A stretch of 64,000 bases of DNA from Prevotella sp. (GTDB taxonomy: Bacteria > Bacteroidota > Bacteroidia > Bacteroidales > Bacteroidaceae), in the NCBI GenBank assembly GCA_017651265.1, contig JAGCDO010000059.1, positions 1 to 64,000 on the forward strand, given 5' to 3'. Position 1 is the stretch's first letter; each line of letters begins with the position of its first letter. The position numbers and the translations under genes were made by a program. The notes below the pieces were generated by a model, which saw only the letters and a program-made list of their open reading frames with translations, was not told the DNA's origin and did no database searches. Below are positions 24,754 through 50,361 of the stretch, piece after piece.

Positions 24754-24819
24754 TTCCCACCTTGGGAATGTTTTGTTCCCAACGTGGGAATATTTTGTTC
24801 CCAGCATGGGAACACTTTG
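24754..24819. repeat. Three tandem 22-bp units of TTCCCAnnnTGGGAA palindrome
   Basis: The 15-bp palindromes TTCCCACCTTGGGAA, TTCCCAACGTGGGAA and TTCCCAGCATGGGAA start at 24754, 24776 and 24798, each followed by 7 bp ending in TTTG. The period is exactly 22 bp. The arms are conserved and the middle three bases vary. The array fills the gap between the stops of convergent mutS and lgt. The same unit occurs four times at 47442-47522. Confidence 0.88.
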
Positions 24820-24822
24820 TTT

Positions 24823-25752
24823 CTAAGATGAAAACTCTTTCTTTCTTGACCTGATCATGCACCAGATGCCGATGATGATGAAGGGGATGGAAAGCAGCTG
24901 TCCCATATTGAACATCATCCCTTCCTCGAAAGCTTCCTGCACGTCCTTCGTGTATTCAATGAAGAAGCGGAAGGTGAAGATATAGGTCAGGCAGAATCCG
25001 AAATACCAACCTGTTCCCACCTGTGGCGTACCGGTTTTCTTACTACGTTTGTAGATAGCCCACATGATGAAGAAAAGGATGGCGTAGGCGATGGCCTCGT
25101 AGAGCTGTCCGGGGTGGCGTGGAAACATATCCACACGCTCAAAGATAAATGCCCAGGGCACATCGGTTACCTTACCGATGATCTCTGAGTTCATCAGGTT
25201 ACCCAAGCGGATGAAACAGGCGGTAGTTCCTGTGGCAATAGCGATATTGTCAAGAACGGTCCATACCTTTAGTTTCGACCAGCGAACATAGAGGATCAGG
25301 GCAATGATCAGACCGAGTGTTCCGCCATGACTGGCAAGTCCTTCATAGCCGGTGAATTTCCAACCTCCATCGGCCATGAAATGAATGGGCAGGAACATCT
25401 CTACTAAGTGCTTGCCGGAAGTGAGGAAATAGTCGGGCTGATAGAACAGGCAGTGTCCTAAGCGTGCACCGATCAGGATTCCCAGGAAGCAGTAGATGAA
25501 GAGCGGGTCAAAAACATTCTCCTTTTCCTTTTTCCCTTTCGCATTGACTATCGTACGCTCTGCAATATTCTGTTCATAGAACAGTTTGCGCACAATGAAA
25601 TAGGCTAATCCCAAGCCAATGAGCCAGCACAGGGAGTACCAGCGGAAAGGACCGATGGTTAACGATGGGTTCCAGGTGATGAATAAGAGACCCCTCCCAG
25701 CCTCCCCTATAAGGGAGGAGTAATTAGCGATGGCAGTTAATAATATGTTCAT
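24823..25752 (-). CDS. lgt: Prolipoprotein diacylglyceryl transferase
   Basis: 309 aa integral membrane enzyme that moves diacylglycerol from phosphatidylglycerol to the lipobox Cys. Seven hydrophobic spans are visible. Motifs: [19 protein letters not shown] near 33-51, [17 protein letters not shown] near 90-106, [13 protein letters not shown] near 136-148, [14 protein letters not shown] near 178 (signature) and [11 protein letters not shown] near 205. The first about 20 residues ([12 protein letters not shown]) are encoded by a 43-bp intergenic-type repeat, and no other start lies nearer the core. It follows ychF by 69 bp and would serve the lipoproteins at 7743 and 53107. Confidence 0.95.
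25687..25729. repeat. 43-bp G/C-tract repeat inside the 5' end of lgt (copy 1)
   Basis: Contains CCTCCCCTATAAGGGAGG, a self-complementary core, flanked by a CCC-rich side and TAATTA. It matches the reverse complement of 25781-25823 over about 43 bp with scattered differences. It is translated as part of the Lgt N-terminus. Confidence 0.7.
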
Positions 25753-45125: not shown

Positions 45126-45133
45126 TATATTTG
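45126..45133 (+). promoter_or_regulatory. -7 promoter element TATATTTG upstream of the structured LRR leader
   Basis: TATATTTGCC about 365 nt before the LRR start codon; the transcript would carry both structured RNA segments described below. Confidence 0.65.
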
Positions 45134-45201
45134 CCCTCAGAAAGAATGTTTTAATTGAAGTAATAACTTTTAATAGATTAGTTAATGATATAGAAACAGA
45201 A

Positions 45202-45298
45202 CGAAAAGAACGCTAACCGGCTTATGATGAGACTCAGTCTCACAAAGCTACAGAGACTTTACAATTAATATTAACTTACAGAATAGCGTTTCTGTTCG
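45202..45298 (+). ncRNA. Structured leader RNA segment 1 (unrecognised)
   Basis: The left arm CGAAAAGAACGCTA (45202-45215) pairs with TAGCGTTTCTGTTCG (45284-45298) over about 13 pairs with one bulge and one mismatch. An inner perfect hairpin TGAGAC-TCA-GTCTCA lies at 45228-45242. It is followed by a small hairpin GAGCT-TTT-AGCTC (45317-45329) with TTTGTTCTTT, a weak terminator candidate. No known RNA family is recognised. Confidence 0.45.
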
Positions 45299-45338
45299 TA
45301 CTTATACATAGATATTGAGCTTTTAGCTCTTTGTTCTT

Positions 45339-45491
45339 TAATCTCGAAACCGCCAAATCTTCGAAACGGAAAGAACAAGTTGTTGAAGGTTCACGCTTAA
45401 TAGGCGTGAGCTATTCATGCTTGTTTCCGTTCATGGTTACTTGGCGGTACCAGAGATTAGATAAGCATCGAATGGTTCCGCCTTTATTTTT
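45339..45491 (+). promoter_or_regulatory. Candidate attenuator/riboswitch in the leader of the LRR gene
   Basis: Closing stem P1: TAATCTC 45339-45345 with GAGATTA 45453-45459, and CCGCCAA 45350-45356 with TTGGCGG 45441-45447. P2: ACGGAAA 45366-45372 with TTTCCGT 45424-45430. P3: GTTCACGC 45389-45396 with GCGTGAGC 45404-45411. In competition, GGCGGtACC 45443-45451 can pair with GGTtCCGCC 45474-45482, directly followed by TTTATTTTT: a classic intrinsic terminator ending 8 nt before the ATG at 45499. P1 and the terminator use the same GGCGG and cannot coexist. This is the architecture of an attenuator or riboswitch; ligand and family are unknown. Confidence 0.6.
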
Positions 45492-45498
45492 CTTCGCT

Positions 45499-46788
45499 AT
45501 GAAACAAATAATTGTTTTATTAACTTTGGTGGCATTTGCTATTAATGTGAATGCCTATGATTTTTCAGTGAAAAATGCTGATGGAATTAATATTTACTAC
45601 AACTATATTAATAATGGAAAAGAAGTCGCAGTTACTTATGAAGGATACTATAAAACATGGAGTTCAAGTAAACTGGATTACATTTATTGGTATGGTGGTT
45701 ATAGAGGAATAGGGGATTGTTTAGTTGTTCCTGAGACAGTCACGTATAATGATCGTACATACCCTATTACACAAATTGCAACTAATGCTTTTCGCGATTC
45801 TCACGTTGAGACAATTATTCTTCCTAACAGCATAAAATATCTTGGTAGTTATTCGTTTACAGATAGTTGGATAGAGGAAATAACGATACCAAATGGTATC
45901 AAAGAACTAAAAAGTGGTGTTTTTTCAGGATGCACAGATTTAAAGAAGGTTTCTCTTCCAGAAGGTCTTGAGGTGATTGATAGTTATGTTTTTGATGGTT
46001 GCAAGTCATTAACTTCAATTTCTATTCCAGAAAGTGTTACTGTTTTAAAAGGTTTTACAGACTGTACAGGATTAACTTCAATAACTATACCAAAGAATGT
46101 TACTGATGTCTATTTTTCTGGTTGTGACAATTTGTTGAAGATATATTCTTATATTGAAGATCCTAGAGATATCTCTTATCCGTCAATTGCATTTTCAAAG
46201 AACACATATTATAGTGGTACATTATATGTACCTAAAGGGACAATAGAGAAATATAAATCAAAAGAAGGTTGGAAATCATTTACTTGGATTGAAGAGATGT
46301 CAAGTTCTGGTGATAACAGGTGTGCTACTCCTACATTGTCATATTCATACAAAGAGATAAAATATGATTGTGAAACAAGCGGCGCTACTATTCATGAAAC
46401 GATAAAGTGCTCCGACGCTGCAACTACAACTTTTTCAGGTTCCCATAAACTCAATGCTGTCTATGAAATAACAGCTTATGCTACTGCAGATGGATATTCT
46501 CCATCAGAGACAATCAATGCAAAGCTATTCTGGATAGATGGTTCATTAGAATCTACCAGTATAAATAGTATTAGAGCAAACACCAGAGGCATCTTAATTC
46601 AAAATGATGATGGCTTCTTAAAAGTATCTGGACTGAATAACAATGAGCAAGTAACCATATTTGATATTAGTGGCACACAATTGGGTACAGCTAAATCAAT
46701 TGATGGAACCGCTGTTTTCAACATTAATTCGATAGACAAAGTTATTGTAGTCAAAGTAGGAAACGATTCTGTAAAGGTTCAGTTATAA
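45499..46788 (+). CDS. Secreted BspA-type leucine-rich repeat protein
   Basis: 429 aa from ATG 45499 (MKQIIVLLTLVAFAINVNA signal peptide). The frame is open 56 codons upstream, through the structured RNA, but the signal peptide fixes this start. Residues about 85-260 are LRR_5/BspA repeats: VETIILPNSIKYLGSYSFTDS, IEEITIPNGIKELKSGVFSGC, LKKVSLPEGLEVIDSYVFDGC, LTSISIPESVTVL. Then YVPKGTIEKYKSKEGWKSF, a CHB_HEX-like segment (ATTTFSGSHKLNAVYEITAYATADGYSPSE), and a C-terminal T9SS-like domain (VTIFDISGTQLGTAKS..VIVVKVGNDSVKVQL). BspA proteins bind host matrix or other bacteria. AT-rich compared with neighbours. Confidence 0.82.
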   Translation: MKQIIVLLTLVAFAINVNAYDFSVKNADGINIYYNYINNGKEVAVTYEGYYKTWSSSKLDYIYWYGGYRGIGDCLVVPETVTYNDRTYPITQIATNAFRDSHVETIILPNSIKYLGSYSFTDSWIEEITIPNGIKELKSGVFSGCTDLKKVSLPEGLEVIDSYVFDGCKSLTSISIPESVTVLKGFTDCTGLTSITIPKNVTDVYFSGCDNLLKIYSYIEDPRDISYPSIAFSKNTYYSGTLYVPKGTIEKYKSKEGWKSFTWIEEMSSSGDNRCATPTLSYSYKEIKYDCETSGATIHETIKCSDAATTTFSGSHKLNAVYEITAYATADGYSPSETINAKLFWIDGSLESTSINSIRANTRGILIQNDDGFLKVSGLNNNEQVTIFDISGTQLGTAKSIDGTAVFNINSIDKVIVVKVGNDSVKVQL

Positions 46789-47441: not shown

Positions 47442-47522
47442 TTCCCATGCTGGGAATAAAATGTTCCCATGCTGGGAATAAGTTGTTCCCACGTTGGGAA
47501 TAAAGTGTTCCCATGTTGGGAA
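47442..47522. repeat. Four tandem 22-bp units of TTCCCAnnnTGGGAA palindrome
   Basis: Palindromes start at 47442, 47464, 47486 and 47508: TTCCCATGCTGGGAA twice, TTCCCACGTTGGGAA and TTCCCATGTTGGGAA. Each is followed by 7 bp (TAAAATG, TAAGTTG, TAAAGTG, TAAATGG). Same family and period as 24754-24819 but with a different spacer word. It lies between promoter and start codon of the GH30 gene, so each unit can fold as an RNA hairpin. Confidence 0.9.
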
Positions 47523-47550
47523 TAAATGGAAACTCGTAAAGAAAGATATA

Positions 47551-50361
47551 ATGAAACAGAAAAGACGTTGGTTTCTTGCAGTCGTTTGCTGTGTGATGAA
47601 CAGTGCTTTGTGGGCCCAGTCAAATGTATTACAAGACACGCTGCGCTATGAGGTCAACCCGTTGCAGGTGCGACAGCACTTCGATGGCTGGGGCGTATCG
47701 TTGTGCTGGTGGGCAGGACAATGCGGCAAGTGGGATGACGAGAAGATAGATGAGATTGTCACCTGGCTCGTCAGTCCTGAAGGTCTTAACTATAATCATT
47801 TCCGTTATAACATCGGTGGAGGTGATGATCCCTTGAACCGTCATTGCACTCCCCACCACATGGGGCGTGGAAAAGGGTTGCGGGCCGAGATGGAAGGATT
47901 CAAGGATTCCCTCGATGATGTTTACCATTGGGACAGAGATGCAGCCCAACGTAAGATAATGCTGAAGATTAAGGAGAAGCGACCAGATGCCGTATTCGAG
48001 GCTTTCAGTAACTCTTGTCCTTACTATATGACCTATAGCGGCTGTGTTGGCGGTCATGAAGACGGTGGTAAGGATAACCTCCGCCCGGAGTATTATGAGG
48101 CGTTTGCCCACTATCTGGTAGATGTGTGCAAGCATTATAAGGATACATACGGCATTGAGTTCAAGACATTGGCACCTTTCAACGAGTCGGCTGCCAACTA
48201 CTGGCACGCCAATGGCTCACAAGAAGGCTGTCATTTCGACTACGAGTCGCAAATCAAGTTCATCCAAGTGCTTGAGCCCATTCTCCGTCAGTCGGGTTTG
48301 AATACCGTCATCTCTGCCGCCGATGAGACCAATGTGGGGCAGGCCATTGCAGGACTGAACCGTTATGTCTCGGCAGGCATTGACAAACACATCGGTCAGT
48401 GGAACACCCATACCTATGGAGGAAACAATGAAGAACGAATACGCTATGGAGAACTGGCCCGTAAGACCGGCAAACACCTTTGGATGAGTGAAACAGGAGC
48501 AGGTGGCAATGGAATAGCCGGGAACCTCAGTCTGACACAACGCCTCTTTGACGATATGCGTTACATTCAGCCGGAGGCCTGGATAGACTGGCAATATATG
48601 GAAGAGGCCAACGATCAATGGTGTACCATCCGTGGTAGCTTTGCCAATCAGACATACGCGAAGGTGAAGAACTACTATGTACGACAGCAGTGTTCACGTT
48701 TCATCAAGCCAGGTTATACCATTATCACCTCCGATTGTAGGCAGTCGTTGGCTGCCCTCAATGCCCATTGTGACACATTAGTGGTGGTTGTTCTGAACCA
48801 AGGTAAGGCGAACACCCATGATATCGATCTATCCTATTTCCCCAACTATATAAGTAGCATCAGCGCCTATCGTACTTCTGAGAACGAGAATCTTGCCGAT
48901 GCAGCCAACAGTGTCGCACTTAATGAGAGTCATCTCTTCGTCGATATGCCTTCACAGAGTATTACCACCTTGGTGATTCACTTTGATGATACCCATGCTG
49001 TGACTGCAAAGATGGATAGGAGTCTGGCTAAAAAGACCGACGGGAAGCCAAGACTTGTGGTGTGTACAGACATTGCCCCAGCAGATGTTGAGCCAGACGA
49101 CATGGAATCGATGGTCAGACTGATGTCCTATGCCGACCAGTTCGAGATCGAGGCTCTTATCACCACGGTGGGATGGAACTGCGATCCCTATCCTGTTGAA
49201 TGGGCGAATTATCTGCAGCGGGTGATTGATGCCTACCGAAAGGATGTACCGAAGCTGATGAAACGCTCAGGACAGCGCGTTTTTCTCTCGTTAGAGAAAG
49301 AAAATGGAACGCAGCGCATTGGCTATTGGCCCAGTGCCGACTATCTCAAGAGTCGTGCCGTCATGGGTAGTGTGCATGGTGGAATCAAGGTGATAGGCGA
49401 GGGCAATGATTCGCAGGGCAGCGACTTACTCATCCGTTTGGCCGATGAAGACGACCCCCGACCGATCTATGTGGCAGCATGGGGTGGGGCGAACACCTTG
49501 GCCCAGGCTATCTGGCGGGTAAAGCAGACTCGTTCGCCAGAGGAACTGAAACGATTCGTGCAGAAGTTCCGTATCTATACCATTACCGATCAGGATATGC
49601 AGTACAATATGCGTATGAATCGTGCCTATAGCTCTCATCAATGGCTGCGACAAGTCTTTCCATACGACCTTCAGTTCGTTTGGGATGAGGGTACGTGGCA
49701 GGAACAATGCGAGTTGGGTAAGCAAAACTGGCAGCTGCATAAGAATCATATCCAGGGAAAAGGTGCATTGGGAAAGGAGTATCCCGACTACAAATGGGGA
49801 GTGGAAGGCGATACATCCAGTTTCCTCTATGTGTTACCTAACGGACTCAATGATCCTGAAGATCCAAGACAGGCTGGATGGGCGGGTTATCATGAACGCG
49901 GACTTTGTGCTGATTCGCTCACAACAGCCTGGACCAGTTGGCAAGAGCCTGTTTACAGTACTTCCGTTGCCTACAAGAGACGCTTCTATCCCGATGAAAT
50001 CGCCGATTTTATGGCTCGTATGCAGTGGGCTGACGAAGGTAAAGGAAACAGAAATCCAAAGGTAATCGTAAACAACAGTAAAGGACTTCAGCCTCTTGTC
50101 ATCCATGCGAAAGCAGGATCGACCGTACGACTTAATGCCTCGAAATCGAAGGATCCCGATGGAGATGCCCTTTCTTTCCATTGGTGGCAGCAACCTGAGA
50201 TCGGGAAGACGAAAGTGACGATCAATCCTTCTGATGGACCTAAAGTGTCGATACAGATTCCTGATTCCATCGGTGATACCATTCATCTTGTTTGTGAAGT
50301 ACACGACAACGGACCATTCCATCTGGTGTCGTATCGTAGAATTATCATATATATCGAATAG
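47551..50361 (+). CDS. Secreted GH30-type glycosidase fused to a Sde182/DUF1593 nucleoside-hydrolase-like domain
   Basis: 936 aa from ATG 47551 (MKQKRRWFLAVVCCVMNSALWAQ signal peptide); the frame opens 19 codons earlier inside the repeat array. Residues about 30-480 are a GH30 (beta-1,6-galactanase/glucosidase-like) barrel: HFDGWGVSLCWWAG, FRYNIGGGDDP, LAPFNESAANYWHANGSQEGC (acid/base Glu212), WMSETGAGGNG (nucleophile Glu314). Residues about 500-830 are a DUF1593 domain (RLVVCTDIAPADVEPDDMESMVRLMSYADQFEIEALITT), and about 845-936 the Ig/cadherin-like Sde182 C-terminal domain (VRLNASKSKDPDGDALSFHWW). The fusion is unusual. Likely degrades plant side-chain glycans. Confidence 0.82.
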   Translation: MKQKRRWFLAVVCCVMNSALWAQSNVLQDTLRYEVNPLQVRQHFDGWGVSLCWWAGQCGKWDDEKIDEIVTWLVSPEGLNYNHFRYNIGGGDDPLNRHCTPHHMGRGKGLRAEMEGFKDSLDDVYHWDRDAAQRKIMLKIKEKRPDAVFEAFSNSCPYYMTYSGCVGGHEDGGKDNLRPEYYEAFAHYLVDVCKHYKDTYGIEFKTLAPFNESAANYWHANGSQEGCHFDYESQIKFIQVLEPILRQSGLNTVISAADETNVGQAIAGLNRYVSAGIDKHIGQWNTHTYGGNNEERIRYGELARKTGKHLWMSETGAGGNGIAGNLSLTQRLFDDMRYIQPEAWIDWQYMEEANDQWCTIRGSFANQTYAKVKNYYVRQQCSRFIKPGYTIITSDCRQSLAALNAHCDTLVVVVLNQGKANTHDIDLSYFPNYISSISAYRTSENENLADAANSVALNESHLFVDMPSQSITTLVIHFDDTHAVTAKMDRSLAKKTDGKPRLVVCTDIAPADVEPDDMESMVRLMSYADQFEIEALITTVGWNCDPYPVEWANYLQRVIDAYRKDVPKLMKRSGQRVFLSLEKENGTQRIGYWPSADYLKSRAVMGSVHGGIKVIGEGNDSQGSDLLIRLADEDDPRPIYVAAWGGANTLAQAIWRVKQTRSPEELKRFVQKFRIYTITDQDMQYNMRMNRAYSSHQWLRQVFPYDLQFVWDEGTWQEQCELGKQNWQLHKNHIQGKGALGKEYPDYKWGVEGDTSSFLYVLPNGLNDPEDPRQAGWAGYHERGLCADSLTTAWTSWQEPVYSTSVAYKRRFYPDEIADFMARMQWADEGKGNRNPKVIVNNSKGLQPLVIHAKAGSTVRLNASKSKDPDGDALSFHWWQQPEIGKTKVTINPSDGPKVSIQIPDSIGDTIHLVCEVHDNGPFHLVSYRRIIIYIE

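Follow-up and report, generated by a model that had tools for sequence, protein, structure and literature searches.

The question raised by this locus is whether the leader ahead of a BspA-like leucine-rich repeat (LRR) gene in Prevotella sp. works as a regulatory RNA and, if it does, of which kind. The window, meaning the whole stretch of 64,000 nucleotides (nt) that was analysed (assembly GCA_017651265.1, contig JAGCDO010000059.1, positions 1 to 64,000), had been described in the original prediction as carrying a possible undescribed attenuator or riboswitch, in which three stems (P1, P2 and P3) compete with a terminator hairpin. Bacteroidota are major degraders in the gut and the rumen, and to our knowledge few cis-regulatory RNAs have been worked out in this phylum. 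The leader, at 45315-45491, is a member of a large structured-RNA family, whose helices covary, keep a steady place before genes and are widely spread. It is probably a transcription attenuator, of a family that is found across Bacteroidota.

Folding of 45330-45495 gives -57 kcal/mol, against a shuffle mean of -35.4 (z -5.6), and none of 200 shuffles folds as well. The positions proposed for P1 (45339-45356/45441-45459), P2 and P3 agree with the folding, P2 and P3 sitting inside longer helices. A helix at 45316-45339/45370-45393, a two-codon mini open reading frame (mini-ORF) at 45185-45193 and a promoter-like motif at 45126-45133 had not been part of the earlier description. The elements of the leader, with the evidence on which each is placed, are as follows.

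45126-45133, + strand: promoter-like motif TATATTTG (TAnnTTTG), from the sequence; the motif is enriched at a fixed distance 5' of the relatives
45185-45193, + strand: two-codon mini-ORF ATG-ATA-TAG, from ATG-NNN-stop in the relatives; its context in the window differs from TGCYN-ATG
45194-45315, + strand: 5' domain of the leader, type A, with AACTTACAGAATAGCGTTTCTGTTCG, from comparison with the relatives
45316-45339, + strand: strand alpha (region 1), partner beta, from folding and covariation counts
45339-45356, + strand: 5' strand of P1, with the core ACCGCCAA at 45349-45356, from folding and covariation
45365-45431, + strand: P2 (45365-45380/45419-45431) and P3 (45384-45398/45402-45417), from folding and covariation
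45370-45393, + strand: strand beta (region 2), partner alpha or gamma, from folding and covariation
45402-45426, + strand: strand gamma (region 3), partner beta or delta, from folding and covariation
45441-45459, + strand: 3' strand of P1, core 45441-45448 and extension 45453-45459, from folding and covariation
45459-45483, + strand: strand delta (region 4), the 3' arm of the terminator, from folding, covariation and complementarity
45483-45491, + strand: U-tract TTTATTTTT, from the sequence
45499-46788, + strand: downstream gene, 429 amino acids (aa), with BspA-type leucine-rich repeats (PF13306, E 7.4e-27)

The U-tract ends at 45491 and the ATG stands at 45499, which would place the predicted stop site just ahead of the start codon, as had been claimed, and the gene behind it is indeed of the BspA-like LRR type.

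Relatives of the leader are numerous. With 45140-45500 as the query, BLAST gave matches in 94 of the 299 genus genomes (the own genome is included in this and all following genome counts). At 30 of these loci, the alignment is good as far as the terminator and collapses beyond it; the genes after the element are mostly unrelated by eye, and two loci have no ORF longer than 37 aa. A model built from those 30 loci (R1) matched 162 of the 299 genus genomes at E<=0.01. At E<=0.001, it matched 125 of 251 genomes in 21 of the 30 genera of the taxonomic family, 45 of 198 in the order and 6 of 198 in the phylum. For a second model, built from distant copies (R2), the matches at E<=1e-4 came from 38 of 296 phylum genomes. 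The copies per genome are lower bounds, with limited candidates scored per genome and strict filters, and the E-values are rough. Twenty element regions were picked for their R2 matches (one by both models), so that their 20/20 is by construction, and the test is given by control regions of the same genomes, in which R2 matched 0 of 20. Two more copies in the own genome, C66:54536-54703 and C23:37387-37585, were found by R2 and not listed by R1; the former precedes a 1106-aa ORF that is helicase-like by eye. The matches listed in a pattern scan of named genomes come from Prevotella and Bacteroidales metagenome-assembled genomes, many from ruminants, and from Chryseobacterium populi, Chryseobacterium luquanense, two Christiangramia, Winogradskyella luteola and Polaribacter glomeratus. 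The last six loci also match R1, the Winogradskyella match being weak and cut by the contig end. Phage records gave no match to the element, searches of plasmid records gave 0 and 1 matches, and a pattern search of viral_contigs gave 2 stretches.

For comparison, the copies were sorted into near (89 of 90 matches), mid (18 copies) and far (45 of 52 matches) sets. The element is quasi-palindromic and weakly matches on the opposite strand; one opposite-strand match was dropped from the near set, seven opposite-strand matches of the same places from the far set, and opposite-strand and partial matches from the mid set, together with two copies already counted as near. A plain MAFFT alignment of 106 copies (A7) holds the window together with 105 of the 107 elements in the near and mid sets; L001, being the window's own copy, and L174, which has a long insertion, were dropped. 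The distant alignment (A8) holds 31 of the 45 far copies, after removal of nine near-like and three very distant copies, one part match and one duplicate; a further alignment (A11) holds 26 of 35.

The stems P1-P3 covary in both alignments, so that the search for homologous leaders with covarying stems, suggested as a check of the original prediction, did find them. In the 106 copies, P1-P3 are paired at 89.5%, compared with 32-43% for slid partners, and their covariation score of 0.367, the highest among the helices counted, compares with 0.07-0.11 slid and 0.190 shuffled. Five pairs of the P1 extension are changed on both sides in 34-53 sequences each. In the 31 distant copies, pairing is 83.7% (40-50% slid), the score is 0.484 (0.09-0.14 slid), the 25 double-change pairs are reached by 4 of 500 shuffles, and the number of pair types is reached by none of 500. 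The P1 core changes in step there, with C-G, U-A, G-C and A-U at one position, and it is flanked by conserved letters, GAA before and ACC after.

The terminator is real as well and covaries, as 45402-45426/45459-45483 (gamma:delta): 87.6% paired with 10 double-change pairs against 5.8 shuffled in the 106 copies, and 92.9% paired with 7 against 1.8 in the distant ones. Its conserved 5' strand is that of P3/P2, and not the GGCGG of P1 that had been proposed as the strand shared by both folds. It is possible to draw the proposed hairpin GGCGGtACC/GGTtCCGCC, with 82.4% pairing in the 106 copies, but its covariation does not go beyond shuffles, with 2 double-change pairs against 1.9 and a score reached by 33 of 500 shuffles. 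The longest run of pairs between the P1 3' strand and delta is 5.4 in the near copies (5.9 with shuffled delta) and 5.7 in the far copies (6.1), whereas gamma and delta reach 9.6 (6.1 shuffled) and 7.9 (5.4). Alpha:beta is 91.4% paired in the 106 copies. Since gamma, and not the P1 3' strand, matches delta, the conserved design is one of four strands with exclusive pairings, in which P1 closes the middle fold. A closed P1 and the terminator would thus be mutually exclusive, as had been predicted, although not through a shared GGCGG: closed P1 would exclude the terminator because it encloses the P2/P3 helix that holds the 5' strand of the terminator.

Two features of attenuators are therefore present in the alignments, namely a conserved hairpin followed by a U-tract ahead of a gene, and a conserved, exclusive helix that shares a strand with the terminator (beta:gamma against gamma:delta). 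From this arrangement we infer that the helices control termination. The four strands would give two mutually exclusive folds. In the read-through fold, beta would pair with gamma (P2 and P3) inside P1, and delta would be left without its best partner. In the stop fold, alpha would take beta, gamma:delta would form, and the hairpin with the U-tract would end transcription just ahead of the start codon.

The leading guess for the input of this switch is a ribosome on the two-codon mini-ORF, as the conservation and position of that ORF suggest. The motif TAnnTTTG, which we take to be the Bacteroidetes -7 motif, has a peak before alpha in each group, with 23 hits between -200 and -176 among the 86 near loci, 7 hits between -225 and -201 among the 17 mid loci and 10 hits between -75 and -51 among the 41 far loci. 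The context TGCYN-ATG, picked after the ORFs had been seen, is found in 35 of 105 near and mid leaders with enough upstream sequence. The stop, which itself lies outside this context, is at codon 3 in 34 of the 35 (16 TAG, 16 TAA, 2 TGA), and the second codon takes ten forms. Varying codons with a fixed stop position are the pattern expected of a translated two-codon ORF. Among the far leaders, ATG-NNN-stop occurs at -45 to -21 in 13 of 45, compared with 10 of 360 local control windows; shuffles average 1.8 and reach at most 7 in 2000. Where near and mid leaders have both features, the mini-ORF follows the start of the promoter motif by 47-61 nt in 25 of 28, and in the window it does so by 59 nt by coordinates. 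Its distance to strand alpha is about 130 nt in near leaders and 30 nt in far ones. With two codons and ten second codons, it lacks the run of regulated-amino-acid codons of a leader peptide. A ribosome residing on it would alter the 5' domain and so decide whether alpha captures beta, and the residence time would be set by start, stop and peptidyl-tRNA release, rather than by one amino acid.

In L014, L018, L019, L023, L025, L030-L033 and L036, the leader begins differently (type B): CTCTC and a CCAYCG..GGTGG-like hairpin are present, and no TAnnTTTG was seen at the usual place; a similar hairpin stands behind sdhB in L343, where no element was found. In addition, L034, L016 and L037 carry insertions of about 30-70 nt in the 5' domain, which is otherwise well conserved.

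The place of the element before genes was assessed with downstream ORFs of at least 60 aa and background ORFs of at least 150 aa. An ORF starts within 250 nt in 86 of 89 near copies, and in 83 of these 86 it does so within 54 nt (median 16); the spacing in the far group is less strict, with a median of 55. By a crude test of export, hydrophobicity of the N-terminus, 74 of 86 near downstream proteins score positive, against 89 of 266 other ORFs in the loci, as do 14 of 17 in the mid and 25 of 40 in the far group. The 103 near and mid downstream proteins fall into 38 Pfam families, of which LRR_5 is the commonest (11), followed by other repeats, DUF4468 (4), TonB_C (2), Lipocalin_4 (2), Peptidase_C10 (1) and others; the far group, for which 39 of 40 proteins were used, includes BACON, HisKA, EcoRI methylase, HSDR_N, PDDEXK_2 and others. 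With LRR_5 in 11 of 103 proteins, a link with BspA-like genes only is rejected, and a weak element match (19-42 bits) was found in 6 of 29 other LRR homologue loci. The claim of an attenuator- or riboswitch-like leader outside Rfam 15 is well supported by covariation, a steady place before a gene in near relatives and the lack of an Rfam match; the family is not specific to BspA-like genes. Several near copies stand directly behind the end of sdhB by eye; as a home site, sdhB is rejected, with the element in 0 of 29 other sdhB loci (flank up to 1.5 kb). The frame free of stop codons that had been noticed through the leader is present in the ORF list, open from 45331 on into the downstream gene. 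Translation through the leader as a conserved feature, raised as a second possibility, is rejected: 12 of 135 copies, the window included, are open for at least 168 nt and 5 of 135 across the element, so few that the open frame looks like chance. A small XRE-like ORF (66-91 aa, by eye) follows directly after leaders L080, L116, L117, L123, L280 and L431, and in some of these exported-looking genes come next. In L132 (1258-2541), two near-identical elements lie 1.1 kb apart, with a paralogous gene after each.

This diversity bears on the input. In a true riboswitch, P1-P3 would be an aptamer for a small molecule or ion, whose binding fixes the read-through fold or its opposite. The high covariation score of P1-P3, the conserved GAA and ACC around the P1 core and the terminator that follows would suit such an RNA. 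A single pathway was looked for among the 103 and 39 downstream proteins and not found, however, with 38 Pfam families in the 103 proteins and the commonest in 11, and much of the conserved sequence would be accounted for by the alternative pairings, so that a riboswitch appears unlikely.

Somewhat less likely still is an input in trans, in which a protein or small RNA would bind the 5' domain or the loops and pick the fold. One leader on unrelated genes suggests one general regulator, and several copies are found in many genomes. In a variant of this explanation, the stop fold would expose the complementary 8-mer loops ACCGCCAA and UUGGCGGU, through which copies could meet in trans. However, the P1 core differs among the copies of one genome (L104-L110, genome G557), which fits cis pairing better than cross-talk, and no recurring partner gene was seen, although no systematic search was made for one.

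The predicted balance of the folds, together with several other results, weighs against the attenuator. In partition-function folding, all 106 copies form P1-P3 as long as delta has not been made, and 99 of the 106 still do so once it has. The read-through fold is favoured, with a P1 core probability >0.5 in 99 of 106 and 30 of 31 distant copies, and the terminator is dominant in 6 of 106 and 0 of 31 (7 of 106 and 1 of 31 by a cruder count). The window copy is exceptional in favouring the terminator (0.86), a preference that is lost once alpha is left out. A third state that is unused in the scheme, pairing of delta with alpha, is predicted for 27 of the 31 far copies and for 19 of the 106 near ones. 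A simple balanced switch is disfavoured because the energy models prefer the read-through fold and delta tends to alpha; for termination, P1-P3 would have to be opened by folding during transcription or by something outside the energy model. The P1-P3 counts in the 106 copies are not above shuffles for double-change pairs (23; reached by 245 of 500) or pair types (96; reached by 450 of 500), two inner P2/P3 helices pair poorly in distant copies (49% and 57%), alpha:beta is weaker in far copies (75.4%), and a slide by one column yields as many double-change pairs for alpha:beta in the 106 copies and for distant gamma:delta. The mini-ORF context is limited to the 35 leaders given above, type B leaders are without it, and related copies are not independent; its count is not a blind test, because the context was chosen afterwards and the sequences are related. 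Finally, among 20 copies in complete genomes or the own genome, 6 lack an ORF of at least 60 aa in the 250 nt that follow, and in 4 the distance to a large ORF is 228-236 nt; by eye, a few of these ORFs resemble SusC or sigma factors.

Part of this would suit an explanation without any switch, in which a long imperfect hairpin ends an upstream small RNA or stabilises the mRNA 5' end, with steady read-through. The alpha:delta pairing predicted in 27 of 31 far copies would make one long hairpin, the read-through fold is dominant in 99 of 106, and the quasi-palindromic sequence with its weak opposite-strand match is as expected. Such an explanation is as improbable as the trans input, in that the double changes of gamma:delta exceed shuffles, delta complements gamma and not the P1 strand, and the gene start keeps a tight distance in the near group.

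The neighbourhoods of the element lean to accessory genes, which is suggestive only. By eye, two Christiangramia copies follow tyrosine-integrase-like ORFs, the Polaribacter copy follows a serine-recombinase-like ORF, ArdA-like ORFs occur within 3 kb of two copies, and one copy, on a 16-kb viral contig, stands between terminase-like ORFs and a lipoprotein-like gene, which we take to be placed as a moron would be. With 131 of 132 neighbourhood proteins used (up to 7 genes per region, none above 900 residues, cut at 350), the 25 of 112 Pfam families listed for element neighbourhoods include GmrSD (as the first protein), Phage_int_SAM_5 (2), TraQ, PDDEXK_2 and SusD-like_3 (7). Most of the 25 of 193 families listed for control neighbourhoods belong to metabolism and transport, and SusD-like_3 is found in 2 there. 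With PHROGs, element neighbourhoods showed no clear excess, and the controls match two integrase families. It is very improbable that the element is a recombination or insertion site of mobile genes, acting as a single-stranded DNA hairpin with an incidental RNA fold. Differing cargo and the recombinase-, ArdA- and terminase-like neighbours seen by eye agree with it, as does Phage_int_SAM_5, which occurs in 2 of the 131 neighbours and is absent from the 25 families listed for controls. Against it, the two PHROG integrase families are matched by the controls too; where present, the promoter motif, the mini-ORF, the U-tract and the start codon retain their order and spacing; two elements per locus occur in 6 of 149 sources (flanks short); and the element matches weakly at 6 of the 29 other LRR homologue loci.

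Elsewhere in the window, 22-nt tandem hairpin repeats of the TTCCCAnnnTGGGAA type lie at 47442-47529 and 24754-24830 in opposite orientations, and the ORF 47494-50361 joins GH30-like, Sde182 nucleoside-hydrolase-like and Sde0182 C-terminal domains.

The transcription attenuator thus remains the favoured explanation. The switch would precede accessory genes, mostly for exported-looking proteins, with some copies near phage- or integrase-like ORFs. A wider reading, put forward tentatively, is that of a phylum-wide RNA class in which a ribosome on a two-codon ORF senses the general state of translation initiation or termination and sets a four-strand terminator switch, as a ready-made unit for accessory and mobile genes, mostly for exported proteins. 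If this is true, unrelated genes would answer to one signal. The RNA family is present in about half of the sampled genomes of its taxonomic family and extends to Chryseobacterium, Christiangramia and Polaribacter. Through it, a single signal may govern many accessory genes, chiefly those for surface proteins, and it offers a testable case of regulation by a two-codon ORF.

The earlier remark that no RNA family with this layout was known agrees with Rfam 15 (4227 families), which gave 0 matches at the gathering cut-off in the window. At 29 relative loci, it gave only tRNAs, two in all across 20 loci and three in all across 9, none of them at the element, and permissive scans of three copies gave sub-threshold matches only. 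In the open literature searched on Prevotella and Bacteroidetes leaders, attenuators, RNA motifs and two-codon ORFs, no description of this leader family was found. In trp-type attenuators, pairing of strands 1:2 with the 3:4 terminator competes with 2:3, and a short leader ORF is present. The family described here resembles them in its four strands and exclusive pairings and, in some of its leaders, in a putative short ORF upstream. It differs in that the ORF has two codons, takes ten second codons and lies about 130 or 30 nt before strand 1, in that a covarying P1 closes the 2:3 fold, and in that its genes do not belong to one biosynthetic pathway. Bacteroid-trp is listed as RF01692 (PMC2864571).

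Flavo-1 (RF01705), described as structured, widespread in Bacteroidetes and sense or antisense of transcribed regions (PMC9723704, PMC2864571), shares structure and spread with this family; Flavo-1 itself is not found at gathering score in the window or the 29 loci. Compared by description only, the 64 structured 5' regions listed for Flavobacterium psychrophilum (PMC9723704) are likewise strongly structured leaders, of which some are also conserved outside this species and some lack an Rfam match. HMP2_4205 and HMP_4078, Bacteroidetes candidates of 132 and 109 bp, the former a predicted terminator and the latter near phage integrase and D5 domains (PMC8040213), are palindromic like the element, again by description and not by model. 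Near in print, and also compared by description only, are the long 5' UTRs (untranslated regions) of Bacteroides thetaiotaomicron with putative short ORFs (PMC7366714). Two-codon minigenes in the axe-txe and LEE1/ler leaders are reported to affect expression of the nearby gene, which is 15 nt away in axe-txe (PMC8708949). The present family shares with them, in some of its copies, an ATG-NNN-stop ORF within the leader and, unlike them, has this ORF at the far end of an attenuator-like RNA.
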